From: Streptomyces sp. NBC_01244
GTDB taxonomy: Bacteria; Actinomycetota; Actinomycetes; Streptomycetales; Streptomycetaceae
Assembly: GCF_035987325.1 (NCBI RefSeq)
Contig: NZ_CP108488.1
Location: 1,674,001-1,738,000, forward strand
DNA length: 64,000 nt
Direction of reading: 5' to 3'
Below, piece by piece: positions 29 through 21,064 of this stretch (position 1 is the stretch's first letter; every line of letters begins with the position of its first letter). Under the pieces are notes generated by a model that worked only from the letters and a program-made list of their open reading frames with translations, ran no database searches and was not told the origin of the DNA. Made by a program: the position numbers and the translations under genes.

Positions 29-718
29 TCACCCGGATCCCACGCGTCGGCCGGTCATCCTGGTGGGGGTAATGGACATCCAGTGCGTACGGGGTCCGCC
101 GGCCCAGGGAAGCGAGCGGGCGACCGAATACAGGTGGCTGACCCGCTCCCCGTCCGTGACACCGGACACCTCGCCGACGGCCATGACGCTCCAGCCCTCT
201 CGCATCACGTCGTCGATGTGGTCCACCTCGAAGGCGACCTCGGTCCCGGATGCCTCGGCGATCCGCGAGTCGGCCGCCGTGCGGAACGCGATCTCGTTTC
301 CCACGACGACATAGTTGACGGGGAAGACGGCGAGTCCTTCCATGCCGGAGAACCCGACCCGGCCGATGCCGTGGGTGGAGAGCAGGCGGAGGCACTCGGC
401 CTCGCTCAGCACCGTCGACGCGGAACCGCGCATTGCGGTCCCCATGCCGGGGGGACTGTCGGTCGTTCTCCCTGTCAGCTCGGCAACGGTGGTCCCCAGC
501 CCGTCCGCGAGACCCACGAGCATGCCCATGCTGGGCGCCGCCGCCCGCTCCTCCACGTAGGCGATGTACGACGCGGCGGCCCCGCAGCGCTCCCCGAGTT
601 CTTCACGCGTGAGGCCCAGCTCTACGCGGCGGGCGCTCACGCGTCGTCCGAAGTCACCACGGGCAGCCGGAACCTTGATCGGGGACGCATCTGCTGTGGT
701 CTCTCCCATGATCGTCAC
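29..718 (-). CDS. HTH-XRE / pyridoxamine 5'-phosphate oxidase-like fusion protein
   Basis: The 229-residue protein has an N-terminal XRE-type helix-turn-helix at about residues 20-75 (RRVELGLTREELGERCG followed by YIAYVEE). A C-terminal split-barrel flavin-binding domain of the PPOX family follows from about residue 105, with the typical 'GRVGF...FPVNYVV...IAFRTA' pattern. This fusion is common in actinomycetes and is usually annotated as a pyridoxamine 5'-phosphate oxidase family protein; its substrate is not known, and F420 or FMN binding is possible. The GTG at 718 follows an AAGGGT-like site; the ATG at 709 is an alternative start. A GGGCCG-type double palindrome lies about 90 bases upstream, so membership of the local stress regulon is likely (inference). 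Confidence 0.85.
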   Translation of the reverse strand: MTIMGETTADASPIKVPAARGDFGRRVSARRVELGLTREELGERCGAAASYIAYVEERAAAPSMGMLVGLADGLGTTVAELTGRTTDSPPGMGTAMRGSASTVLSEAECLRLLSTHGIGRVGFSGMEGLAVFPVNYVVVGNEIAFRTAADSRIAEASGTEVAFEVDHIDDVMREGWSVMAVGEVSGVTDGERVSHLYSVARSLPWAGGPRTHWMSITPTRMTGRRVGSG

Positions 719-803
719 ACCCTTGTTGTTCGAGGCCGGTACAGGAACTTGGCGACGCGCTGGGCGTCAACCTCAGGCTGTACCCGCTACCGGTGCACGC
801 ACA

Positions 804-840
804 GGGCCGGACGGTCCCCTACCGGGGCCTGTCGGGCCCC
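804..840. promoter_or_regulatory. Double palindromic operator, probable DevR/OsdR-type site
   Basis: GGGCCGGACGGTCCC at 804-818 is an imperfect palindrome. A second one, GGGGCCTGTCGGGCCCC, lies at 824-840. The pair sits about 90 bases upstream of the HTH-PPOX gene. The first box is identical to one at 12065-12079, and the second is the exact reverse complement of the box at 12085-12101. Assignment to the local response regulator is inference from position and from resemblance to DosR-family boxes. Confidence 0.6.
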
Positions 841-940
841 TGCGGCCCTCTCCCCGGGGTGTGACGGTGGAGGCCGGTTTCCCCTGCCGGAGGAAGGCCT
901 GTCATGTCCGAGGCGGCTTCGTTTCCGCCCCGCACACCAC

Positions 941-1384
941 CTACCTGGTCCACGGGGAGGAAACCGTTGGGAAACCCTCAGGACCGCTGTCCGCTTCCGG
1001 AACCAGTCGGCGGTGAAGTTCCGTGGTCATCGCGTGGATGGCACGGGTCAGTTCCGTATTGGTCTTGAGTTCCAGCTCCTGCTCGACGAAATCGTGGTCG
1101 GCCTTCGCCTGTTGGAACGCTGCCTGCCGGTTCTGCCCGATCATCACGAACGTCGACAGGAAGATCGCCTCCAGGGAGACGGCGAGCGTCAGCATCGGCC
1201 AGGGATTCGCCTCCACGAACAGCATCCAGAGGGCGAAGCCGATCGCGTGGAGATAGACGAACGGCATGGAGCCGGCGAACTTCGTGATCGCGTCAGCGAT
1301 GCGCGACTGGACACCGGCGGCCTGACTCGTGCGGTGTGCGACGACAACCGGATGGTGCCGCGCCTCGTCCTCGGTTGCGTTCAC
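941..1384 (-). CDS. DUF1003-type small membrane protein
   Basis: The 147-residue protein contains two adjacent hydrophobic segments (around FVYLHAIGFALWMLFV and MLTLAVSLEAIFLSTFVMIG), then a polar C-terminal helix rich in Q, E and K. This is the layout of the DUF1003 family, whose function is unknown. The reading frame stays open further upstream, but the GTG at 1384 is preceded by GAGGAGG, and the upstream extension has low-complexity composition, so this start is preferred. The gene diverges from the phosphoketolase, and the 289-base gap between them carries a GGGGCCG-ac-CGGCCCC palindrome that may control both. Confidence 0.75.
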   Translation of the reverse strand: MNATEDEARHHPVVVAHRTSQAAGVQSRIADAITKFAGSMPFVYLHAIGFALWMLFVEANPWPMLTLAVSLEAIFLSTFVMIGQNRQAAFQQAKADHDFVEQELELKTNTELTRAIHAMTTELHRRLVPEADSGPEGFPTVSSPWTR

Positions 1385-1552
1385 CTGCCTGCCTCCTCGG
1401 GACGAGCACCCGTGACACGGCTCTGTGTCCCGCATCGTCTCAAAACCATCGACCCTTCTCGGCGTACCGCCAGAGCCCGCCGTCGGCCGGGGCGGCGTGA
1501 CCCGGCAGAGACCCAGCCCGCCCACACTCCACCCCCCGCCGGCGCCGCAGAA

Positions 1553-1568
1553 GGGGCCGACCGGCCCC
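1553..1568. promoter_or_regulatory. Palindromic operator GGGGCCGACCGGCCCC
   Basis: This palindrome, with 7-bp arms around AC, is identical to the one at 10867-10882. It lies between the divergent DUF1003 and phosphoketolase genes, about 105 bases before the latter. A related half-site (GGGGGCCGTCCC) follows at about 1572-1583. It is probably a site for the DevR/OsdR-like regulator encoded at 4684-5373 (inference). Confidence 0.6.
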
Positions 1569-1673
1569 ATGTGGGGGCCGTCCCTGCCCTTCCCGCCTCC
1601 GGCCCCGTAGGAGCACGGTTCACGCATCGACTCAACCGGCGCATGCCCCGGCCTGCGGTTCGAAGGAGCTCTC

Positions 1674-4037
1674 ATGACCACCACGTACCGGATCACGGAG
1701 CTGGACGCGCACTGGCGTGCCGCGAACTACCTGGCCCTCGGCCAGATCTACCTCATGGACAACCCGCTGCTCGCCGAGCCGCTGCGGCCGGAGCACATCA
1801 AGCCGCGGCTGCTCGGCCACTGGGGCACCGCCCCCGGCCTGAACCTCGTCCACACCCACCTGAACCGGGTGATCAAGGAGCGTTCCCTGAAGGCCCTGTG
1901 CGTCTGGGGACCCGGCCACGGAGGGGCGGCCGTCCTCGCCAACTCCTGGCTGGAGGGCACGTACAGCGAGACCTATCCGGACATCGGCCGGGACGCGGAC
2001 GGGATGCGCAGGCTGTTCCGCCAGTTCTCCTTCCCCGGCGGCGTGCCGAGTCACGTCGCGCCGGAGACGCCGGGCTCCGTCCACGAGGGCGGTGAGCTCG
2101 GCTACTCGCTGGCCCACGCGTACGGGGCCGCCTTCGACCATCCCGGCCTGCTGGTGGCCTGCGTCATCGGCGACGGCGAGGCGGAGACGGGGCCGCTGGC
2201 CGCCTCCTGGCACTCGAACAAGTTCCTGGACCCGGTCCACGACGGCGCCGTCCTGCCGATCCTGCACCTCAACGGATACAAGATCGCGAATCCGACCGTG
2301 CTGTCGCGGATCCCGGAGCAGGAGCTCGACGCACTGCTGCGCGGCTACGGGCACGAGCCCCTCTACGTCTCCGGCAGCGACCCCGCCCTCGTCCACCCCG
2401 CCATGGCCGGAGCCATGGACCGGGCCCTCGACCGTATCCACGCCCTCCAGCGGGAAGCCCGGGCCGCGGGCACGGATCCGGGCGCTGAGCGTGCGCCCTG
2501 GCCGATGATCGTCCTGCGGACTCCCAAGGGCTGGACGGGTCCCGCGACCGTCGACGGGCAACCCGTCGAAGGCACCTGGCGCGCACACCAGGTGCCGCTC
2601 GCAGGGGTGCGCGAGAACCCCGAACACCTGAGGCAGTTGGAGAGCTGGATGCGTTCCTACCGGCCGGAGGAGCTCTTCGACGCCGAGGGCCGCCCCGTCT
2701 CCTCCGTACTGGCCTGCGTGCCGGAGGGGGAGCGCCGGCTGGGGGCGAGCCCGTACGCCAACGGCGGCCGGCTGCTGCGCTCGCTCCCGCTCCCCGCCCT
2801 CGACGCGTGGGCCGTCCCCGTGGAGAAGCCCGGAAGCACCCTGCACGAGCCGACCCGCGTCCTGGGCCGCTACCTCGCGCAGGTCATGAGGGACACCGCC
2901 GGACGGCGGGACTTCCGGGTCGTGGGGCCGGACGAGACGGCGAGCAACCACCTCGACGACCTGTACGACGTCACCGGCAAAGCCTGGCAGGACATGACGG
3001 AACCCACCGATCAGAACCTGTCCCGCGACGGCCGGGTCATGGAGATCCTCTCCGAGCACGTGTGCCAGGGCTGGCTGGAGGGGTACCTCCTCACCGGCCG
3101 CCACGGACTGTTCTCCACGTACGAGGCCTTCGCCCACATCGTCGACTCCATGGTCGGCCAGCACATCAAATGGCTCAAGAGCGCCCGCGAGCTGAGCTGG
3201 CGCGCGCCCGTCGCCTCCCTCAACTACCTGCTCACCTCGCACGTCTGGCGCCAGGACAGCAACGGCTTCTCCCACCAGGACCCCGGCTTCGTCGACCACG
3301 TCCTCAACAAGAGCCCCGAGGTCGTACGGGTCTACCTGCCGCCGGACGCCAACACCCTCCTCGCGGTGGCCGATCACGCGCTGCGCAGCCGTGACCAGGT
3401 GAACGTGATCGTCGCGGGCAAGCAGCCCTGCTTCGACTGGCTGCCCATCGGGGAGGCCCGCGCGCACGTGGCTCGCGGCGCGGGCGTCTGGGAGTGGGCG
3501 GGGACCGATCACGGCTCCTGCGAGCCGGACGTCGTGCTCGCCTGCGCCGGCGACGTGCCCACCATGGAGGTCCTGGCCGCCTCGGCCCTGCTCCGCGAGC
3601 ACCTCCCCTCGCTGGCCGTCCGGGTCGTCAACGTCGTCGACATCGCCCGGCTGATGCCCCACGAGGAACACCCGCACGGCATGACCGACACCGAGTACAA
3701 CGCCCTCTTCACCACCGACAAGCCGGTGGTCTTCGCCTACCACGGCTATCCGTGGCTCATCCACCGTCTCGCCTACCGCCGGACCGGCCACGCCCAGCTG
3801 CACGTCCGCGGCTACAAGGAGTCCGGGACCACGACCACCCCCTTCGACATGGTCGTACGCAACGACCTCGACCGGTACCGGCTCGTCATGGACGTCATCG
3901 ACCGCGTCCCAGGCCTCGCCGGTCGCGCGGCGGCCCTGCGCCAGACCATGTGCGACGAGCGGATCCGCCACCACGACTGGATCCGCGCCCACGGAACCGA
4001 CCTGCCGGAGGTCGCCGACTGGTCCTGGCCCTACTGA
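1674..4037 (+). CDS. xfp: D-xylulose 5-phosphate/D-fructose 6-phosphate phosphoketolase
   Basis: The 787-residue protein matches the usual length of Xfp/Xpk phosphoketolases. These thiamine-diphosphate enzymes split xylulose 5-phosphate (or fructose 6-phosphate) with phosphate into acetyl phosphate plus glyceraldehyde 3-phosphate (or erythrose 4-phosphate). Visible family blocks include [18 protein letters not shown] near the N-terminus, VWGPGHGG, a ThDP-binding GDGEAETGP at about 175-183, and the C-terminal [14 protein letters not shown]. The ATG at 1674 has AAGGAG 5 bases upstream. The enzyme yields acetyl phosphate, hence ATP, without the full glycolytic route, which fits a low-oxygen survival role in this stress island. 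A palindromic box lies upstream and a hairpin at 4046-4074 follows the stop. Confidence 0.95.
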
Positions 4038-4045
4038 TCGTCCCG

Positions 4046-4074
4046 CCCGGGGCGGTACGGGTGGGCCGCCCGGG
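4046..4074 (+). terminator. Hairpin after phosphoketolase
   Basis: CCCGGGGCGG at 4046-4055 pairs with CCGCCCGGG at 4066-4074 with one bulged base, nine bases after the phosphoketolase stop. No U-tract follows, as is common in Streptomyces. Confidence 0.5.
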
Positions 4075-4080
4075 TCGGGG

Positions 4081-4099
4081 AAGGTACCGAACGGCCCTT
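4081..4099. promoter_or_regulatory. Palindromic operator upstream of the cyclic-nucleotide-binding gene
   Basis: AAGGTACCGAACGGCCCTT is a degenerate member of the GGGrCCG-nn-CGGyCCC palindromes of this island. It lies 56 bases before the start of the downstream gene, which is the expected operator position. Confidence 0.45.
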
Positions 4100-4154
4100 C
4101 CCGGACGGGCCGACGGCGGCGGAGGGTGGAAGCGGACCCGAACGGAGAACCGCC

Positions 4155-4640
4155 ATGAGCACCTCTTCCCCCCACCGGCTCACCTCCTCCCCCATCCGCT
4201 TCGACCACGCCCTCTCCCCGGCGCACTGCGGCAGTCTGCTGGCCCTGGCCCACGAGGCGAACTTCGACGCCGACGCGCGACTGTTCAACCAGGGCGGGCA
4301 CGCCGACCGGTTCTGGGTCGTCCGGTCGGGCAGCGTCGGCATGGACGTGCACGTACCCGGCAGGCAGGCCGCGGTGGTCGAGACAGCCGGCCCGGGCGAG
4401 CTCGTCGGGTGGTCCTGGCTGTTCCGTCCCTACACCTGGCACTTCGGCGCCGAGGCCATGACGCCGGTGCGCACCGACGAGTTCGACGCCGCCGCCGTAC
4501 GGGCGCTGATGGACTCCGATCCCGCACTCACCTCCGCCATGTGGCAATGGGTGGGGCAGGTGCTCGCCCACCGGCTCGTCTCCGCCCGGGTCCGGCTCCT
4601 CGACCTGTACGCACCCCACGGCAGCGGAAGCCTCATCTGA
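4155..4640 (+). CDS. Stand-alone cyclic nucleotide-binding domain protein
   Basis: The 161-residue protein is essentially one cNMP-binding beta-roll: 'ADARLFNQGGHADRFWVVRSG' at about 37-57, then 'AAVVETAGPGELVGWSWLF' in the phosphate-binding-cassette region. It lacks the Crp C-terminal helix-turn-helix, ending soon after the C-helix with VRLLDLYAPHG. Such orphan Crp-like sensor domains occur in the S. coelicolor dormancy-type gene island (recalled). It lies between the phosphoketolase and the response regulator, and its own palindromic box precedes it. A ligand or partner cannot be read from the sequence. Confidence 0.8.
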   Translation: MSTSSPHRLTSSPIRFDHALSPAHCGSLLALAHEANFDADARLFNQGGHADRFWVVRSGSVGMDVHVPGRQAAVVETAGPGELVGWSWLFRPYTWHFGAEAMTPVRTDEFDAAAVRALMDSDPALTSAMWQWVGQVLAHRLVSARVRLLDLYAPHGSGSLI

Positions 4641-4683
4641 GACAATTGTCCCCAGACGTATCCGACCCGAGGGTGTGGCGTGG

Positions 4684-5373
4684 ATGTCCGATGCACCAGC
4701 TGCCGCCCCGGCGCCCATCCGGGTGTTCCTCCTCGACGATCACGAGGTCGTCCGGCGCGGACTGCACGACCTGCTGGACTCCGAGCCGGACATCGAGGTG
4801 GTGGGTGAGGCGGCGACGGCCACGCAGGCCCTGGCCCGAGGGCCGGCACTGCGGCCCGACGTCGCGGTGCTCGACGTACGGCTGCCCGACAGCGACGGCA
4901 TCAGCGTCTGCCGCGAGCTGCGCTCGCGCATGCCGGATCTCGCCTGCCTCATGCTGACGTCCTTCGACGACGAGGACGCCCTGCTCGACGCCATCATGGC
5001 GGGCGCGGCCGGGTACGTACTGAAGCAGATCAAGGGCTCGGACCTGGTCGCCGCCATTCGGACGGTGGCGACGGGCCAGTCGATGCTCGACCCCGCGACG
5101 ACGGCCCGTCTGATGAGTTCGCTCCGGGACCCGACCGCCGGGAAGCCGCCCGGAGACAAGCGACTGACGGTGCTCTCCGAGCGCGAGCGAGCCGTACTCG
5201 AACTGATCGGCGAAGGCCTCACCAACCGTCAGATCGGAAAAAGGCTCTTCCTGTCCGAGAAGACGGTCAAGAACCACATCTCACGGCTGCTCGCCAAGCT
5301 GGGCGTCGAACGCCGGGTGCAGGCCGCCGTCATCGCCGCCGAGGTGCGCGAGCACGACGAGACCGGCCGCTAA
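4684..5373 (+). CDS. NarL/LuxR-family response regulator, DevR/OsdR-like
   Basis: The protein has about 229 residues. The receiver domain shows the acidic pair in FLLDDHEVVRRGL, the phosphoacceptor Asp in VAVLDVRLPD (about residue 64) and the conserved Lys in YVLKQIKG. A linker leads to a LuxR-type helix-turn-helix (LSERERAVLELIGEGLTNRQIG ending in VKNHISRLL). Layout and wording closely resemble mycobacterial DevR/DosR and Streptomyces OsdR, which switch on dormancy genes. The ATG at 4684 is preferred because GAGGG lies at a good distance; the in-frame GTG at 4675 is too close to it. The gene converges on the histidine kinase gene, its presumed partner, with only 9 bases between the stops. 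Confidence 0.88.
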   Translation: MSDAPAAAPAPIRVFLLDDHEVVRRGLHDLLDSEPDIEVVGEAATATQALARGPALRPDVAVLDVRLPDSDGISVCRELRSRMPDLACLMLTSFDDEDALLDAIMAGAAGYVLKQIKGSDLVAAIRTVATGQSMLDPATTARLMSSLRDPTAGKPPGDKRLTVLSERERAVLELIGEGLTNRQIGKRLFLSEKTVKNHISRLLAKLGVERRVQAAVIAAEVREHDETGR

Positions 5374-5382
5374 GGCCCGAAC

Positions 5383-7149
<1,767 letters not shown>

Positions 7150-7263
7150 TCAGCGTAGTCCTCCGGCCGTCGGCCGGTGACGGTCGGAGCCACGGGTGAG
7201 GGGCAAGGGGGAGCTGGACCGGCGCGAATCCGTTCAGGCTGACACCCAGGACGCGATGCCCGT

Positions 7264-7741
7264 TCACCCGCCGGGGACAGTGATCACTGGGCAGTGCGCC
7301 CGGTGCAGCAGCCCGTGGACGACCGATCCGAGCCGGATGCCCGTGTAGTCGCCCCTGCCCCGCCGGCCCACGACCAGGGCCGGTGCGTGCTCAGCCGCCT
7401 CGGCGAGGCACTCCACCGGGTGTCCGGTCAGCACCTCGTGGGCGAGCTTGACCTCCGGGTACTCCTGCGCCCGGCCTGCCGCCTCTCGCTCAGCATGCGG
7501 CCAATCCGTCTCAGGGTGGCGCTCAGTGCCCAGACCGCGGGCTCTTCGAGGGCCTCCGCGCTGGCCTGCCGTACGGCATTGTGCTGCGCGGTGTCGTGGG
7601 GCGAGGGCGCGCGGCCAGGACCACACGGAGCCGGACGTTGCGACGGTGTGCCTCCTCGGCTGCCCAGGCGGGGGGGGCAGGAGTCGCCCTCCGGCGGAAT
7701 CGATCCCCACCGCGATGTCCCGTCTCCCCGATGTCCGTCAT
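7264..7741 (-). pseudogene. Universal stress protein, broken by several frameshifts
   Basis: Pieces of one UspA domain are found in order in three frames on the minus strand: the N-terminal strand (DIAVGIDSAGG), then APPAWAAEEAHRRNVRLRVVL, then AQHNAVRQASAEALEEPAVWAL, and last the C-terminal half (YPEVKLAHEVLTGHPVECL to RAHCPVITVPGG, with the ATP-binding GRRGRGDYTGIRLGSVVHGLL). At least three frame changes are needed. One lies near an 8-G tract at 7670-7677, a likely site of slippage or sequencing error. The start overlaps the stop of the intact upstream Usp gene by 4 bases (ATGA), so the two once formed a coupled pair. Confidence 0.75.
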
Positions 7742-8646
7742 GACGCGTCACTCCCCCGCGCCTGATCGTGCCGCGGAATGAGCTCCACGGGGCAGTGCGA
7801 GTGGTGCAGGAGACTGTGCGTCGTACGTCCCAGGGTGGGCCCGAAGTACCCGGGTGATCGCCGCCCTCCCATGACGAGCAGGTCCGCATGGCGTGATGCC
7901 TCGACCAGTACGGAAGCCACCGACACGCCCTTTTCGGCATCGGCGTTCACCGGCAACGCCGGGAACTCGTCGTGTACGCGGTCGGCGACGGACTTCAGAC
8001 CGCGGACATGGCGGCCGGCGAATTCGTTGACGTCGTCGAGCATGGTGACGACGGTTCCGGCGTACTGGACTATGTTCCACACGGTCAGCAGGCGCAGCGT
8101 TGCTTTGCGCAGCTCTGCTTCGCGGGCGGCACGTCGCGCGCTTTCGAAGTCGCACTCGTCCCGAACCGCGGCCAGCACCACGCCGTTCTCAGCGAGGTCC
8201 GCGCCGCCGCGCACCACGATCACCGGGGTCGTAGCGGCTGCCGCGACCCTCAGACCGACCGAACCCAGCATCAGCGACTCGAAGCCACCCAGCCCGCGGT
8301 GACCGACCACAGTCGTGCCGTACTTCGCCCCCACTCGGTGCAGACCGGAGACGGGGTCCCGGCGGCTGTACTCCGTAGTGACGTGGAGGGTCGGGAATCG
8401 CTCCGAGACCTGAGCGGCCGTAAGCTCCAACAGGTCACGGCCCTCCGTGTGGACGCCTGCGATGATCTCCGGCGACAGGTAGAAGATCCCGTCGGCGGTG
8501 TCGGCCGCGTAGAAGATGTGAAGGGCGCTGTTGCGTCGGGCTGCCTCGGCGGCGGCCCAGAATGCCGCTGTCAGCGCGGTGTCTGATCCGTCGACGCCGA
8601 CGACCACCGCGCCGAGGTCGGGACGGTGTGGGGTGGAGCCTTCCAT
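7738..8646 (-). CDS. Tandem-domain universal stress protein
   Basis: The 302-residue protein has two UspA folds. The first begins AVVVGVDGSDTALTAAFWAAAEAARR and carries the nucleotide-binding GHRGLGGFESLMLGSVG. The second begins at about residue 150 (GVVLAAVRDECDFESARRAA) and ends with MGGRRSPGYFGPTLGRTTHSLLHHSHCPVELIP. Usp proteins accumulate in stress and dormancy, and tandem forms are typical of DosR/OsdR regulons. The frame is open well upstream, but the ATG at 8646 is the only start with GAGGAGG, at 6-7 bases. A perfect 21-bp palindrome at 8732-8752 lies 86 bases upstream. Confidence 0.92.
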   Translation of the reverse strand: MEGSTPHRPDLGAVVVGVDGSDTALTAAFWAAAEAARRNSALHIFYAADTADGIFYLSPEIIAGVHTEGRDLLELTAAQVSERFPTLHVTTEYSRRDPVSGLHRVGAKYGTTVVGHRGLGGFESLMLGSVGLRVAAAATTPVIVVRGGADLAENGVVLAAVRDECDFESARRAAREAELRKATLRLLTVWNIVQYAGTVVTMLDDVNEFAGRHVRGLKSVADRVHDEFPALPVNADAEKGVSVASVLVEASRHADLLVMGGRRSPGYFGPTLGRTTHSLLHHSHCPVELIPRHDQARGSDAS

Positions 8647-8731
8647 GGCTTCCTCCTCTGTCGAACAGCGACGGGTGGTGTCTTCACCCTGCCACCCGGG
8701 CTCGCGCGAGGAATGGGCCGCAGGGGTCAGC

Positions 8732-8752
8732 CAAGGGACCGAAGGTCCCTTG
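8732..8752. promoter_or_regulatory. Perfect palindromic operator CAAGGGACC-GAA-GGTCCCTTG
   Basis: Nine-base arms (8732-8740 and 8744-8752) are perfectly complementary around GAA. This is the strongest palindrome of the set and is close in form to the DosR-type GGGACT-box. It lies between the Usp gene (start 8646, minus strand) and the CBS-BON gene (start 8913, plus strand). Confidence 0.65.
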
Positions 8753-8787
8753 CCCGCTACGCACCGCCTCATCGACCGCACACAGCC

Positions 8788-8823
8788 GGGACCGGTCAGT
8801 CCTGACACAGGACCGTTCGGCCC
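8788..8823. promoter_or_regulatory. Two degenerate palindromic boxes upstream of the CBS-BON gene
   Basis: GGGACCGGTCAGTCC (8788-8802) and GGACCGTTCGGCCC (8810-8823) lie 90-125 bases upstream of the CBS-BON start. The second matches the box at 9554-9568 in front of the slipin. Both fit the GGGrCCG-nn-CGGyCCC pattern. Confidence 0.5.
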
Positions 8824-8912
8824 TCGCACCGCAGGCGGACGCGGCGGATGGTGGCTGGTGAGGGCGCTCCGCAAGATGCGCCCACCGGCCGAAGCCGACA
8901 GGAGGGCCACAG

Positions 8913-9542
8913 ATGAAGCACGCCAAGGTCGGCTTCCTGATGACCGACGAGGTCATCTCGGTCCTCGGGAGGACTCCGTCCGCGGACGTGGCCGCGCTGC
9001 TCGTCGAACACGACATCAGCGGCATGCCCGTCCTGGACGCGGACGAGCGCGTCCTAGGGGTCATTTCGCGGACCGATCTGCTCGTCCAAGACCACCTCAC
9101 CGCTCAAGACCTGATGACCGCGCCGGCTGTCACGGTCCACGCCGAACAGACCGTCACCGAGGCCGCCCGCCTCATTACCCGACGCGGGGTGACGCGGCTG
9201 CCGGTCGTCGACGAGGAGGACCGCCTGGTCGGCATCGTGACCCGCCGGGACCTGCTCCGCGTGTTTCTGCGCCCGGACCACGAGATACACCGGGTGCTGG
9301 TCGAGGACGTGCTGTCGGACACGATGGGCATCGGTGCCGATGCCGTGAGCGTGGGTGTCGTGGACGGGGTCGTCACCTTGGACGGCCGACTGCCCAGGAG
9401 CAGCCAGATTCCCGTCGCGCTCCGGCTCGCCGGACAGTTGGACGGTGTGGTCGCGGTCATCGACCGGCTCACGGCCCACTCCAACGACACCCGTACCCGC
9501 ACCGCTCCGCCGGACCGCGGCGCCGAAGACGTTCGCCGCTGA
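8913..9542 (+). CDS. CBS-pair and BON domain protein
   Basis: The 209-residue protein has two CBS motifs (FLMTDEVISVLGRTPSADVA through VLGVISRTDLL, and DLMTAPAVTVHAEQTVTEAA through LVGIVTRRDLLRVF) followed by a BON domain (VSVGVVDGVVTLDGRLPRSSQ...GVVAVIDRL). CBS pairs bind adenine nucleotides and often report energy state; BON domains bind lipid or other partners. This CBS-BON layout recurs in actinobacterial dormancy islands, and a paralogue lies at 12222-12893. The ATG has AGGAGG 8 bases upstream. Palindromic boxes precede it. Its partner is unknown. Confidence 0.9.
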   Translation: MKHAKVGFLMTDEVISVLGRTPSADVAALLVEHDISGMPVLDADERVLGVISRTDLLVQDHLTAQDLMTAPAVTVHAEQTVTEAARLITRRGVTRLPVVDEEDRLVGIVTRRDLLRVFLRPDHEIHRVLVEDVLSDTMGIGADAVSVGVVDGVVTLDGRLPRSSQIPVALRLAGQLDGVVAVIDRLTAHSNDTRTRTAPPDRGAEDVRR

Positions 9543-9553
9543 TGAGGGATGTG

Positions 9554-9568
9554 GACCGTTCGGCCCCT
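9554..9568. promoter_or_regulatory. Palindromic operator upstream of the slipin
   Basis: GGACCGTTCGGCCCC shares its core with 8810-8823 and lies about 135 bases before the slipin start, just after the CBS-BON stop. This suggests the slipin has its own regulated promoter. Confidence 0.5.
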
Positions 9569-9702
9569 GCCCGCCCCATCCTCACCGCGCGAGCATGGAA
9601 GAGAGGCAGGCTCGCCGCACCCGGTCACACCCGTGCGGCGCCTTGCAGACGGACCCGGGCCATCCCCCTGCTCCGCCACCGCACTTCGTGAGGAGCACCT
9701 TC

Positions 9703-10566
9703 ATGGAAGTCCTGATCTTCGCCCTGATCGCCCTGGCCGTGGTCGCCCTGATAGGGCTGACCATGGCCCTGAAGATCGTCAAGCAGTACGAGCAGGGCGT
9801 GCTGTTCCGCTTCGGCCGGCTCATCGGGACCCGCGCGCCGGGCCTGCGGGTCATCGTGCCGTTCGCGGACGTCCTGCACCGGGTGTCCTTGCGGATCGTC
9901 ACCATGCCCATCCAGTCCCAGGGCATCATCACCCGGGACAACGTCAGCGTCGACGTCTCCGCGGTCGCCTACTTCCGCGTCGTCGACGCCGTGAAGTCGG
10001 TCATCGCGATCGAGAACGTGGGCGCGGCCATCAACCAGATCGCACAGACCACCCTGCGCAAGGTCGTCGGCCAGCACACCCTCGACGAAACCCTCTCGGA
10101 GACCGACCGCATCAACCTCGACATCCGCGAGATCCTCGACGTCACCACCGCCGAATGGGGCGTTGAGGTCACCCTCGTCGAACTGAAGGACATCCAGCTG
10201 CCCGACAGCATGAAGCGCGCGATGGCCCGCCAGGCCGAGGCCGAACGGGAGAAGAGGGCCAAAATCATCAACGCCGAGGGCGAATCGATGGCCGCCGCCG
10301 CGCTCGGCGACGCCTCCGACACCATGATGGCCCACCCCCTCGCCCTGCAACTGCGCAACCTGCAGAGCCTCGTGGAGATCGGCGTCGACAAGAACACCAC
10401 AGTGGTCTTCCCCGCACCGCTCATGAGCACCATCGGCGAACTCGGCGCCTTCCTCGCCCGCGAGACCGCGGCCGCGACGCTCCAGACGCCGCGTGCGCCG
10501 GAGATCACCACGCCGCTCCCCAGCCCGTCCCCGCCGAACGGAGCGCGAGCGGTCAAGAGCATGTGA
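9703..10566 (+). CDS. Slipin (SPFH/band 7 membrane protein)
   Basis: The 287-residue protein starts with one hydrophobic segment (VLIFALIALAVVALIGLTMAL) and continues into an SPFH/band-7 domain: VKQYEQGVLFRFGRLIGTR, GLRVIVPFADVLHRVSLRIV, DNVSVDVSAVAYFRV and EWGVEVTLVELKDIQLPD. A coiled stretch (MARQAEAEREKRAKIINAEGE) follows. Slipins are stomatin relatives that form oligomeric scaffolds on membranes and often work with a NfeD-type protein, which is not seen here. The ATG at 9703 has AGGAG at 9691; longer upstream starts would run through the preceding CBS gene. A bidirectional hairpin follows the stop. Confidence 0.9.
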   Translation: MEVLIFALIALAVVALIGLTMALKIVKQYEQGVLFRFGRLIGTRAPGLRVIVPFADVLHRVSLRIVTMPIQSQGIITRDNVSVDVSAVAYFRVVDAVKSVIAIENVGAAINQIAQTTLRKVVGQHTLDETLSETDRINLDIREILDVTTAEWGVEVTLVELKDIQLPDSMKRAMARQAEAEREKRAKIINAEGESMAAAALGDASDTMMAHPLALQLRNLQSLVEIGVDKNTTVVFPAPLMSTIGELGAFLARETAAATLQTPRAPEITTPLPSPSPPNGARAVKSM

Positions 10567-10577
10567 CCGAAAGTCAG

Positions 10578-10619
10578 CGGCGCCGCCGTGCGGAGGACGT
10601 TCTCCGTACGGCGGCGCCG
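10578..10619. terminator. Bidirectional hairpin between slipin and minus-strand genes
   Basis: CGGCGCCGCCGT (10578-10589) pairs perfectly with ACGGCGGCGCCG (10608-10619) over 12 bp, with an 18-base loop. It lies 11 bases after the slipin stop and downstream of the small minus-strand gene, so it can serve both. Confidence 0.75.
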
Positions 10620-10671
10620 ACTGCTGTGCTGTGGGCCGCGTTCAGTGGGTCGCCACGAGTTCGGCGCATTC

Positions 10672-10767
10672 TCAGTACGGCAGCACGCGCCCCGACGGCG
10701 TGCGCAGGTCGAGGGGCAGGGGGCGGTGCGGCCGTGGCCGGGGTGCCGAGATCTGGATCCGAGGCAT
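10672..10767 (-). CDS. Possible small Pro/Arg-rich peptide gene with in-frame TGA
   Basis: An ATG at 10767 follows AGGTGATCC and opens 31 codons beginning MPRIQISAPRPRPHRP and ending TPSGRVLPY, then TGA. The frame continues for nine more codons (ECAELVATH) to a second TGA at 10642-10644, as if the first TGA interrupted a 41-residue protein. Support comes from position: a palindromic box lies 100 bases upstream (10867-10882), and a hairpin lies 22 bases beyond the second stop. No family is recognised with certainty. It may be a real short protein, a gene with a nonsense mutation, or chance. Confidence 0.35.
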   Translation of the reverse strand: MPRIQISAPRPRPHRPLPLDLRTPSGRVLPY

Positions 10768-10866
10768 GGTGGATCACCTCTTCGGGAGCGAGACCCGGAA
10801 CAGGTCCGCACTCCAGAATCACCCGGTGGGAAGATCGCTTGGCAGGGCAAGACAGGGACAGAGGAG

Positions 10867-10882
10867 GGGGCCGACCGGCCCC
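10867..10882. promoter_or_regulatory. Palindromic operator GGGGCCGACCGGCCCC
   Basis: This is identical to 1553-1568. It lies beyond the 3' end of the alcohol dehydrogenase, so it cannot serve that gene. Its only plausible target is the small minus-strand frame at 10672-10767. Confidence 0.5.
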
Positions 10883-10900
10883 AGCGTCAGACCGGGGCCG

Positions 10901-11989
10901 TCACGCCTTCTGGACGCGCGACGGGTTCGATACGGCCAGGTCGTCGTGGCGCGGCCCGCCCAGCACGACCTTCAGCGCGCCCGTCCCACCGGCACGGGAG
11001 AACACCTCGTACGCCTCTTCCATCTGTCCCAGCTCGAAACGATGGGTGATCAGCGACGAGGTCGGCAGCCGGCCGGCCGCCAGCATGCGCAGCAGCATCG
11101 GCGTGGAGGAGGTGTCCACGAGGCCGGTGGTGATGGTGACGTCCTTGATCCACAGGTCTTCGAGGTGCAGGGTCGCCGGCTTGCCGTGGACGCCGATGTT
11201 CGCGACCCGGCCGCCGGGGCGGACCATGCGGGTGCACATCTCGAAGGTCTCGGGCACGCCCACGGCCTCCATTACCACGTCCGCGCCGAGACCGTCGGTC
11301 AGGTCGCCCACGAGCATCTCCGGTTCCTCGGCGGCGTTCACGACCGCGTCCGCCCCCAGCTCGCGCGCCGCCGCCAGCCGGGACGGCGCGAGATCGACGG
11401 CGATGACGCGTGCCGGCGAGTACAACCGTGCCGTGGCGATGGCCGCGAGTCCTACGGGGCCGGCGCCGACCACGACGACGGTGTCCCCGGGCCGCACGTT
11501 GCCGTTCAGCACCCCCACCTCGTAGGCGGTGGGGAAGATGTCCGCGAGCAGGACGGCATCGGCGCTGTCGACCGTGCTCGGCAGCGGATGCACGGAAAGG
11601 TCGGCGAACGGCACGCGGACGTACTCGGCCTGCGTGCCGTCGATGGTGTGCCCCAGCACCCAGCCGCCGCCCCCGCGGCACTGCCCGTAGCGGCTCTCGC
11701 GGCAGAACCGGCACCGGCCGCACGAGGAGATGCAGGAGACCAGGACCCGGTCGCCGGGGCGCACCGAACGGACGTCACCGCCGATCTCCACCACCGTTCC
11801 CACGGCCTCGTGCCCGAGCACCCGGCCGGGAACCACCTCCGGCAGGTCACCCTTGACGATGTGCAGATCCGTACCGCAGATGGTCACGGCATCGACGCGC
11901 ACGATCACGTCGGACGGATCCTTGATGCCCGGATCCGGCACCTCCTGCCACGCGGTGCGCCCCGGTCCCTGGAAAACAAGTGCCTTCAT
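10901..11989 (-). CDS. Zinc-dependent alcohol dehydrogenase (MDR superfamily)
   Basis: The 362-residue protein shows catalytic zinc ligands Cys38 (TICGTDLH) and His60-Glu61 (GHEAVG), a four-cysteine structural zinc lobe (Cys90, 93, 96, 104 in SSCGRCRFCRESRYGQC) and a Rossmann motif VVVVGAGPVGLAAIA. It is an MDR enzyme that interconverts an alcohol and an aldehyde or ketone with NAD(P); the substrate is unknown. Similar dehydrogenases occur in the OsdR-type island of S. coelicolor (recalled), and fermentative NADH reoxidation under hypoxia would fit. The ATG at 11989 follows GAGAGGTGG. Two palindromic boxes at 12065-12101 lie between it and the divergent CBS-BON gene. Confidence 0.92.
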   Translation of the reverse strand: MKALVFQGPGRTAWQEVPDPGIKDPSDVIVRVDAVTICGTDLHIVKGDLPEVVPGRVLGHEAVGTVVEIGGDVRSVRPGDRVLVSCISSCGRCRFCRESRYGQCRGGGGWVLGHTIDGTQAEYVRVPFADLSVHPLPSTVDSADAVLLADIFPTAYEVGVLNGNVRPGDTVVVVGAGPVGLAAIATARLYSPARVIAVDLAPSRLAAARELGADAVVNAAEEPEMLVGDLTDGLGADVVMEAVGVPETFEMCTRMVRPGGRVANIGVHGKPATLHLEDLWIKDVTITTGLVDTSSTPMLLRMLAAGRLPTSSLITHRFELGQMEEAYEVFSRAGGTGALKVVLGGPRHDDLAVSNPSRVQKA

Positions 11990-12064
11990 GACGCCACCTC
12001 TCCATGTATCCCGTGCTCCGGCAAAGGTCACCTCAGGCTGTCCCCGCCGCCCGGTTCCCGGACA

Positions 12065-12101
12065 GGGCCGGACGGTCCCGCACCGGGGCCCGACAGGCCC
12101 C
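12065..12101. promoter_or_regulatory. Double palindromic operator between divergent adh and CBS-BON genes
   Basis: GGGCCGGACGGTCCC at 12065-12079 is identical to 804-818. GGGGCCCGACAGGCCCC at 12085-12101 is the exact reverse complement of 824-840. The pair lies 76 bases from the adh start and 121 bases from the CBS-BON start and could control both. Confidence 0.6.
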
Positions 12102-12221
12102 TCCGGCCCGTGGCGTGGACGTGTGATGGTGGATGGCGGGGTCTCCTTCACCGGGAGACGGCCGCCGATCTCCGGGACGGCCCCGGGAACCCTTCGCCTT
12201 CTCATTGAGGACCACCCCGCC

Positions 12222-12893
12222 ATGACCTCCAGTCCACGTCTCGTCCGCGACGTGATGACGAGAACCGTCGTCAGCGTCACGCCCCTCGCCGAGTTCAAGG
12301 AGATCGTCGCCGTCATGAACCATTGGCGAGTGACGGCCGTACCGGTCGTTGAAGGCGAGGGCGCGAGCAGAGTCATCGGTGTGGTCTCGGAAGCCGATCT
12401 CCTTCCGAAGGAGGAGTTCCGCGACCATGACCCCGGTCTCATCGAGCAGATGCGGCGGCTGGGTGACACGCTGAAGGCCGGCTCCACACTGGCCAAGGAC
12501 CTGATGACGACCCCCGCCGTCACCGTTCGGCCTGACACCACCCTGGCCCAGGCGGCCCGGCTCATGGCGGAGCGGCACATCAAACGACTGCTGGTCGTCG
12601 ACCCGGCCGGCACCCTCCAGGGCGTCATCAGCCGCGCCGATCTGCTCAAGGTGTTCCTGCGCCCGGACAGTGAACTCGCGGACGAGATACGGCGCGAGGT
12701 GGTCGGCCGACTGTTCCCCCTCGCACAGCACAGGGTGCGGGTCGACGTCCACCACGGCGTGGTCACCCTCTCCGGCGGCATCCTCGACGCATCACTCATT
12801 CCGGTGGCAGCACGTCTCGCACGCGCCGTGGAGGGCGTGGTCGACGTCAACTGCGCCCTGACCACATCAGCCGCGCAGACGGCCGGAGCGTAG
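12222..12893 (+). CDS. CBS-pair and BON domain protein (second copy)
   Basis: The 223-residue protein is a paralogue of the one at 8913-9542. CBS1 is at about 8-65 (VRDVMTRTVVSVTPLAEFKE...IGVVSEADLL), CBS2 at about 90-145 (AKDLMTTPAVTVRPDTTLAQAA...LQGVISRADLLKVF), and a BON domain lies at the C-terminus (VRVDVHHGVVTLSGGILDAS...GVVDVNCAL). Unlike the first copy, it has a roughly 25-residue insertion between the CBS motifs (KEEFRDHDPGLIEQMRRLG). The ATG at 12222 has GAGGA at a good distance. An adenine-nucleotide sensing role is inferred from the fold. Confidence 0.9.
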   Translation: MTSSPRLVRDVMTRTVVSVTPLAEFKEIVAVMNHWRVTAVPVVEGEGASRVIGVVSEADLLPKEEFRDHDPGLIEQMRRLGDTLKAGSTLAKDLMTTPAVTVRPDTTLAQAARLMAERHIKRLLVVDPAGTLQGVISRADLLKVFLRPDSELADEIRREVVGRLFPLAQHRVRVDVHHGVVTLSGGILDASLIPVAARLARAVEGVVDVNCALTTSAAQTAGA

Positions 12894-19936: not shown

Positions 19937-21064
19937 ATGACCACTCTTCCCACTGCTGACACCCCGTCCGCCCGGTCCTCCCTGTCCGGGCTGGTCGGCA
20001 ACACACCGCTCCTTCGTGTATCCGAGCCCTTCACCCGGGAAGGCCGCGGCTTCTGGGCGAAGCTGGAGGGCTTCAACCCGGGCGGGATCAAGGACCGTCC
20101 GGCCCTGCACATGGTCGAGCGGGCCCGTGCCCGCGGCGAGCTGCTCCCCGGCGCCCGGATCATCGAATCCACCAGCGGCACCCTCGGCCTCGGCCTCGCC
20201 TTGGCCGGCATGGTCTACGGCCATCCGGTCACTCTGGTTACCGACCCCGGGCTCGAGATGTCCATGAACCGGTTGCTGACCGCGTACGGGGCACAGGTCA
20301 ACCTCGTCTCGGAGCCCCACCCGACCGGCGGCTGGCAGCAGGCCCGCCGCGACCGGGTGACCCGGCTGATGCAGCAGCACCCGGGCTCCTGGTGCCCGGA
20401 CCAGTACAACAACCCCGACAACACCACCGCGTACACCCCGCTGGCACTTGAGCTGGCAGCCGAACTCGGCCACATCGACGTCCTGGTGTGCAGTGTGGGG
20501 ACCGGCGGTCACTCCGCGGGTGTCTCCCGTGTCCTGCAGCAGCTCTACCCGGGACTGGAGCTCGTCGGCGTGGACACCATCGGCTCCACGATCTTCGGCC
20601 AGCCCGCCCGCTCCCGCCTGATGCGCGGCCTCGGCTCCAGCATCTACCCCCGCAATGTCGCGTACGAGAACTTCTCCGAGGTTCACTGGGTCTCCCCGGG
20701 CGAAGCGGTGTGGACCTGCCGCCGGCTCGCGGCCTCTCATTACGCCACCGGCGGCTGGAGCGTGGGAGCGGTCGCCCTGGTCGCGGGGTGGCTGGCCCGC
20801 ACGCTGCCCGCGGACGCTCGTATCGCCGCCGTCTTTCCCGACGGGCCGCAGCGCTACCTGGGCACGGTCTACGACGACGACTACTGCGCCGCCCACGGGC
20901 TGCTCGACGGGCCGCCCGCCGTCGAACCGGAGACGGTGGGCCGCATGGACGAGAAGGAGGTCACTCGCTGGACGCGGTGCACCACCGTGGTCGACCCCCT
21001 CACCCTCGCCGATGAGTCCGAGCCGAAGCCGAACTCCACCGCAGTGGAAGAGTGCGCCCGGTGA
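19937..21064 (+). CDS. PLP-dependent cysteine synthase family enzyme
   Basis: The 375-residue fold-type II PLP enzyme has [10 protein letters not shown] near the N-terminus, the Schiff-base Lys in [14 protein letters not shown], the substrate loop [15 protein letters not shown] and the phosphate-binding [10 protein letters not shown]. In typical cysteine synthases the last is GTGGT and the Lys motif is GS(V/I)KDR; GGIKDR and GTGGH here point to a variant substrate. The ATG at 19937 has AGAGCCGAAAAG upstream; ATG 19922 lacks a site. The stop overlaps the MFS start by 4 bases (GTGA), so an amino-acid product may be exported by its neighbour (inference). Confidence 0.85.

Follow-up and report, generated by a model that had tools for sequence, protein, structure and literature searches.

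Palindromes in a stress-gene island

The window analysed here is the whole stretch of 64,000 nt of Streptomyces sp. NBC_01244 (NZ_CP108488.1, 1,674,001-1,738,000); positions are those of the window unless preceded by C1:. Its first 13 kb carry genes for universal stress proteins (Usp), CBS-BON proteins, a helix-turn-helix (HTH) protein with a pyridoxamine-phosphate-oxidase-like (PPOX) domain, a DUF1003 protein, a phosphoketolase (XFP), a slipin and an alcohol dehydrogenase. Among them lie a cyclic-nucleotide-binding (cNMP) protein gene, a DevR/OsdR-like response regulator and a DevS/DosT-like sensor kinase, and the gaps between the genes hold G+C-rich palindromes resembling the sites of the Streptomyces regulator OsdR (Table 1). 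A preliminary description, drawn from the letters alone, had proposed eight such palindromes and linked them to the regulator by analogy with DosR/OsdR biology. All eight were found, including the perfect 9-bp arms at 8732-8752, which enclose a GAA centre. The pattern GGRCCGNNCGGYCC is matched exactly in six of the eight, those at 4081 and 8732 being variants.

To avoid circularity, the weight matrix used for scoring was built from published S. coelicolor sites alone. It was made symmetric and derives from 25 distinct 16-mers, all from Table 1 of PMC5069765, a table of mostly predicted sites, some of them tested by electrophoretic mobility shift assay (EMSA). The matrix was scored on the window and on 19 background stretches of 20 kb from the same genome (a twentieth, L127, holds a DevR paralogue and was dropped), while the genome-wide scan (10.0 Mb) relied on the exact patterns GGRCCGNNCGGYCC and RGGRCCGNNCGGYCCY. 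Eight sites with a score of at least 11 occur in the first 13 kb of the window against 0.48 expected (Poisson 5e-8), and two in the remaining 51 kb against 1.88 expected. Weaker sites were seen at 824, 12086 and 12095. The cluster extends leftward beyond the window, with a site at about -6.0 kb between Usp and CBS-BON genes. Sites of the AGGGCCGATCGGCCCT type thus stand upstream of a Usp and stress gene cluster, as in an OsdR/DevR regulon, and those of the cluster lie 65-176 bp ahead of start codons. Further Usp and CBS-BON genes, a GH65 enzyme and a cation ATPase are encoded left of the window, where four of the ten proteins scanned had no match.

The association with stress genes was also followed through the genome. 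A search for the Usp family gave 27 matches, merged to 18 loci, of which three have a site of at least 9 within 450 nt: two in the cluster and one at C1:8261871, where a distant variant site stands ahead of a Usp gene. For BON genes, three of four loci have a site of at least 9 within 700 nt, all three in the cluster.

The placement of the eight palindromes relative to genes needs qualification. All of them are intergenic, as had been claimed, only when gene starts are trimmed to the domain and the ribosome-binding site; the longest open reading frames (ORFs) overrun those at 1553, 8735, 8809, 9552 and 12064. Each had also been said to precede one of the listed genes, which fails for 10867-10882: this site lies 3′ of the alcohol dehydrogenase stop codon and ahead of a 31-codon minus-strand ORF.

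Table 1. Features of the island in window coordinates, with matrix scores of the palindromes
Feature	Position	Strand	Remarks
HTH and PPOX protein	29..718	-	PF12900 9e-24, PF13560
OsdR-type palindrome, score 14.5	803..818	-	-10-like box in register towards HTH-PPOX
Weaker second palindrome, 9.7	824..839	+	-10 register towards short + ORF near 903
DUF1003 protein	941..1384	-	PF06210; start chosen by us
OsdR-type palindrome, 17.3	1553..1568	.	between DUF1003 and phosphoketolase; -10 register only towards DUF1003
Phosphoketolase (XFP)	1674..4037	+	
Variant palindrome, 12.2	4083..4098	+	ahead of cNMP-regulator pair; -10 register present
cNMP protein	4155..4640	+	PF00027; first gene of presumed operon with regulator
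DevR/OsdR-like NarL-family response regulator	4684..5373	+	
DevS/DosT-like GAF-GAF-HisKA_3-HATPase sensor kinase	5383..7104	-	convergent with regulator
Usp protein, apparently truncated	7264..7710	-	PF00582 positions 61-141 (C-terminal part of domain only)
Tandem-Usp universal stress protein	7738..8646	-	
Perfect-arm palindrome, GGGACC-N3-GGTCCC type, 11.2	8732..8752	-	96 bp before Usp start; no -10 register
OsdR-type palindrome, 17.9	8809..8824	+	-10 register towards CBS-BON
CBS-BON protein	8913..9542	+	
OsdR-type palindrome, 12.7	9552..9567	+	-10 register towards slipin
Slipin (SPFH/Band 7)	9703..10566	+	
Strong hairpin, probable two-way terminator	10579..10620	.	between slipin and microprotein; 121 nt folded, z -4.1
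31-residue microprotein ORF	10672..10767	-	C-terminus DLRTPSGRxLPY conserved; ribosome-binding site GAGGTG
OsdR-type palindrome, 17.3	10867..10882	-	107 bp before microprotein; no -10 in usual register
Zinc-type alcohol dehydrogenase	10901..11989	-	
OsdR-type palindrome, 14.5	12064..12079	-	-10 register towards alcohol dehydrogenase
Weaker palindrome, 9.7	12086..12101	+	-10 register towards second CBS-BON gene
Second CBS-BON protein	12222..12893	+	

Read by eye, the segments 804-850 and 12065-12110, each a palindrome followed by a weaker second one, are nearly the same over ~50 bp, as if duplicated, and the short ORF near 903 may be the remnant of a second target. The shorter Usp gene lies beside a G-run near 7665 and looks truncated or frameshifted.

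The regulator, its relatives and the -10 register

In the island regulator, Response_reg and GerE are matched, and among solved structures the protein comes closest to M. tuberculosis DevR (3c3w, E 2e-74), to which it is 59% identical over 208 aligned residues and with which it has in common the recognition helix EKTVKN, whose residues we take to contact DNA. GAF-A of the kinase has its best match in 2vzw (5e-54), is closest to DosT/DevS and keeps the histidine column in HPPM, presumably the haem ligand. The DevR-like and DevS-like identities first assigned to these two genes are therefore retained. They are convergent in the window and do not form an operon together, and no site of at least 8 was found ahead of the kinase gene. 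The regulator and the preceding cNMP gene are separated by 43 bp and, because of this short gap, are probably co-transcribed.

We then compared the loci of 80 named relatives of the regulator, up to 10 kb on each side (locus L030 was not used). The next called gene after the regulator is a convergent kinase in 18 of them, a tandem kinase in 7 and another gene in 44, the regulator itself being uncalled in 11. A site of at least 10 lies within 400 nt upstream of the regulator in 66/80 relatives, and 62 of the 86 sites listed are 75-150 bp from it. In the kilobase before the regulator, site density reaches 1.2 per kb compared with 0.06 per kb in the reversed-sequence control. When called genes of these loci are sorted by class, sites occur ahead of 53/76 response regulator, 19/37 PPOX, 9/19 cNMP, 36/81 Usp and 20/55 CBS genes; the figures are 11/56 for histidine kinases, 0/6 for GH65, 1/13 for cation ATPases and 95/588 for other genes. 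Taken with the published OsdR consensus and the DevR type of the regulator, this recurrence supports a link between motif and regulator, as the preliminary description had suggested.

A crude test was used for promoter register: an A-N3-T pair, representing the -10 core, had to occur at 38-40 bases counted from where the site begins. It was applied to the regulator promoters of the 63 of 80 relatives whose best site scores at least 13. The pair was in register in 61 of these, while other offsets gave a mean of 2.3 and a maximum of 6. The -10-like box begins 21-23 bp after the palindrome, a spacing that would put the palindrome centre at about -42 and adjacent to the -35, the arrangement of a class II activator. 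Within the window, the register is kept in six of ten gene-facing orientations (PPOX, DUF1003, cNMP, CBS-BON 1, slipin and alcohol dehydrogenase), compared with 6/178 at background sites (binomial 3e-7). It is also kept at the left-hand CBS-BON promoter, at the distant Usp site and at the weaker sites 824 and 12086, not at 12095. Sorted by gene class over the 80 loci, register was found for 49/66 regulator, 11/21 PPOX, 1/9 cNMP, 0/12 histidine kinase, 8/45 Usp and 14/106 other genes. A site at 20091 was set aside as coding and shows no -10 register.

A scan of the genome for the motif had been proposed as a check on the regulon. Run with the exact patterns, it placed sites elsewhere mostly inside ORFs, and none of the 38 orientations at the 19 exact RGGRCCGNNCGGYCCY sites outside the cluster was in register. 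This suggests a compact regulon to which one or more distant members belong.

The position of the feedback site is peculiar to one branch of the family. The island regulator falls, with its 10 closest named relatives, in an 11-row clade of the tree (support 100/100), none of whose members has a site of at least 10 within 400 nt directly upstream, whereas 66/70 of the other relatives have one. One clade member, L042, has a site of 9.9 at -116. In the window and in L037 a site stands ahead of the preceding cNMP gene, and in L038-L041 ahead of a cNMP or CBS gene; no such arrangement is clearly seen in L042-L046. The 95%-identical relative L037 keeps the arms GGTACCG and CGGCCCT of 4083-4098, with two centre bases changed. 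From this comparison of sequences we read the feedback site as having moved to the operon promoter in the clade, and a clade without the direct regulator site looks new. As a separate observation, L038 and L041 each carry two different DevR/OsdR-like regulators less than 10 kb apart in one island, on separate tree branches.

Predicted operators and competing explanations

We propose that the palindromes are predicted operators of a DevR/OsdR-family regulator, most likely the island product, phosphorylated by the island kinase, and estimate the probability of this reading at about 80%. The convergent DevS/DosT-like kinase would phosphorylate the regulator, with oxygen or nitric oxide (NO) as the signal. 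The phosphorylated dimer would then bind sites whose centres lie ~42 bp upstream of the transcription start, adjoining the -35, and activate the Usp, CBS-BON, HTH-PPOX, DUF1003, slipin and alcohol dehydrogenase genes. Activation of the cNMP-regulator pair would provide positive feedback.

Several observations weigh against this proposal, among them the presence of a second DevR-like regulator in the genome, discussed below. The 14-mer GGRCCGNNCGGYCC is not enriched genome-wide, with 120 places compared to 125 for the reversed control. Eight of the 120 nevertheless fall within one 26-kb interval here (Poisson 2e-9, the interval having been chosen after the fact). Exact RGGRCCGNNCGGYCCY 16-mers number 26 against 28 in the control, seven in the cluster and 19 elsewhere. 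Those outside raw longest ORFs make up 3/7 in the cluster and 3/19 elsewhere, a weak contrast; after trimming of ORF stretches with little third-position G+C excess, the intergenic fractions become 6/7 and 3 or 4/19 (L149 is doubtful). The intergenic contrast is minor evidence; the odds given above derive from the matrix scores, the comparison of relatives and the -10 register. In addition, no direct site was found ahead of the regulator, the nearest being 65 bp before the cNMP start, and the -10 register is lacking towards XFP (1553), Usp (8732), the microprotein (10867) and CBS-BON 2 (12064).

These gaps in register bear on a more restricted view, to which we give somewhat less than even odds, where only some of the eight sites are functional and, for instance, 1553 serves DUF1003 and not phosphoketolase. 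It would account for the missing -10 box from 1553 towards XFP and from 12064 towards the second CBS-BON gene, although the crudeness of the register test tempers this argument. In a search of 121 genomes, 106 of which had an XFP match, a site of at least 11 was present within 430 nt upstream of the XFP domain in only 8 of the 30 loci listed. Against the restricted view, 0/30 control stretches taken from within that gene carried one. Phosphoketolase was rejected as a universal target on the 8/30 count, so that any feedback loop via acetyl phosphate is speculative.

It is unlikely that the sites are real but used mainly by a core orphan DevR-like regulator (C1:4971171-4971800), either on its own or because the island kinase cross-talks to it. 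From its gene neighbourhood we assume this orphan to be probably of the SCO3818 type. It is 65% identical to the island regulator and has a similar recognition helix, EKTIKN. Moreover, in a tree drawn without the S. coelicolor OsdR sequence, M. tuberculosis DevR pairs with this core paralogue (98/92, on long branches), so that the island protein can be called DevR-like but not a proven orthologue. Phosphorylation of SCO3818 by OsdK is also described in parts of PMC9739842 and PMC5069765. What separates the two regulators is the upstream site: none of 24 genus copies of the core orphan has a site of at least 11 within 400 nt upstream (one has 10.1), compared with the 66/80 at 10 or above for the island type. 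Among six orphan matches from other families, one has a site of 15.1 and one a site of 9.8.

Finally, an explanation without any regulator, in which the palindromes serve as hairpins or terminators or form a dispersed repeat, is most improbable. They are G+C-rich inverted repeats, and 3/19 exact sites elsewhere lie outside gene calls near gene 3′ ends, but those of the cluster lie 65-176 bp ahead of start codons, six orientations are in register, and relatives repeat the motif ahead of their regulator genes.

The proposed assignment of the palindromes to the island regulator agrees with a known system. The palindromes follow the consensus published for OsdR (PMC5069765), which makes this a known kind of regulon, and parts of that source report binding of OsdR to such sites in EMSAs in S. 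coelicolor. Judged from sequence, the island would be a well supported new instance of the published OsdR/DevR regulon. According to the same parts of PMC5069765, OsdR/OsdK (SCO0204/SCO0203) has in common with it the 16-bp consensus, a DevR-type regulator, a DevS/DosT-type kinase, a cluster of Usp, PPOX, dehydrogenase and Crp-like genes and several sites near the regulator. In contrast to OsdR/OsdK as presented there, the regulator here follows a site-bearing cNMP gene, the kinase is convergent rather than in one operon, and phosphoketolase, slipin, DUF1003 and a site-led microprotein ORF are present. Nitrate reductase was absent from the 22 neighbouring proteins scanned, the genome itself not being searched for it. 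The portion of PMC5069765 on predictions gives 43 sites over the S. coelicolor genome, while few were found here outside the island. SCO3818, described in part of the literature as a NarL-type orphan and second OsdK partner, has its probable counterpart here in the core paralogue, which lacks an upstream palindrome.

The M. tuberculosis DevR/DosR regulon resembles the island through the identity of its regulator, the GAF-A of its kinases and the Usp genes in its set (the comparison following part of PMC5069765). It differs in that the palindrome is G+C-richer here and the gene set is different, strict orthology being unsure. A known dormancy-type regulon would thereby extend to a clade with its feedback site at the cyclic-nucleotide-binding partner gene, and a palindrome followed by a -10 box 21-23 bp on may serve as a rule for predicting direct Streptomyces targets. 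The shifted feedback site and the unrecognised microprotein are the parts worth following.

A conserved microprotein ORF

The ORF led by the site at 10867 belongs to a conserved family. A protein search of 199 genus genomes gave matches in 91 at E of at most 0.05, where ~10 would be expected from the E-value. A profile of 19 members was found in 77/246 genus genomes at 1e-5 and, over the class, in 55/394 genomes and 23/137 genera at 1e-3. In 23 copies compared over their final 14 codons, first and second codon positions have mean entropies of 0.20 and 0.21 bits and third positions 1.15, rising to 1.72 beyond the stop; these copies were found by protein similarity and peptide pattern, which partly favours a low-entropy result. 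Pfam, NCBIfam and PADLOC offered no convincing match or model (one member reached a Pfam E of 0.11). No PDB relative was obtained (best E 1.5, chains of <20 residues being outside that search). When the ORF was read as 42 residues, the protein database, from which proteins of this length may be missing, returned no homologue. The peptide letters gave 0 matches in open-access full-text literature, and a search there on small proteins yielded just one unrelated paper. The microprotein thus appears to be without a name so far and seems to have been overlooked by genome annotation; if translated, it would provide a handle on the role of the stress island.

For membership of the regulon we assessed 24 copies from the genus loci retrieved, excluding L285 and L334, which lack the pattern. 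A site of at least 10 within 200 bp upstream accompanies 11/14 copies with at least two island-type neighbours, compared with 0/10 of the others (Fisher 1.5e-4). Three results count against membership: the pattern is absent from all 80 named loci, which cover up to 10 kb on each side of the regulator; the -10 register is found in only 1/13 microprotein promoters, that of the window not among them; and the copies scanned outside the genus have no site of at least 9 upstream. A role as leader peptide is unlikely since the downstream neighbour varies and is often convergent.

The N-terminus is Arg/Pro-rich, with RPRPPR in several copies, a motif of proline-rich antimicrobial peptides of the ribosome tunnel such as Bac7 and oncocin. 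Unlike these, the gene is actinomycete and its product has a conserved C-terminus. From these sequence features, we tentatively suggest, as the less probable side of the question, that the ~31-residue microprotein, conserved across actinomycetes, is a regulon member that came under OsdR/DevR control in the stress islands of Streptomyces. It may act on nucleic acid or the ribosome, possibly damping translation in low-oxygen arrest. The function is a guess.

Other copies show varied surroundings. In L267, L268, L269 and L273, a pyruvate phosphate dikinase (PPDK) cluster gene begins 8-32 nt after the microprotein, as identified by Pfam for the L268 member alone. The OsdR sites listed in PMC5069765 include some for SCO0208, the PPDK gene of S. 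coelicolor. A second, diverged copy in the same genome (G000:C1:1828850-1828936, L333), outside the window, lies beside an NB-ARC/STAND ATPase gene and has no palindrome. In another actinomycete family (L317, L318, L321 and L322), two copies are separated by some kb, and glycosyltransferase and PIG-L deacetylase clusters lie close by.

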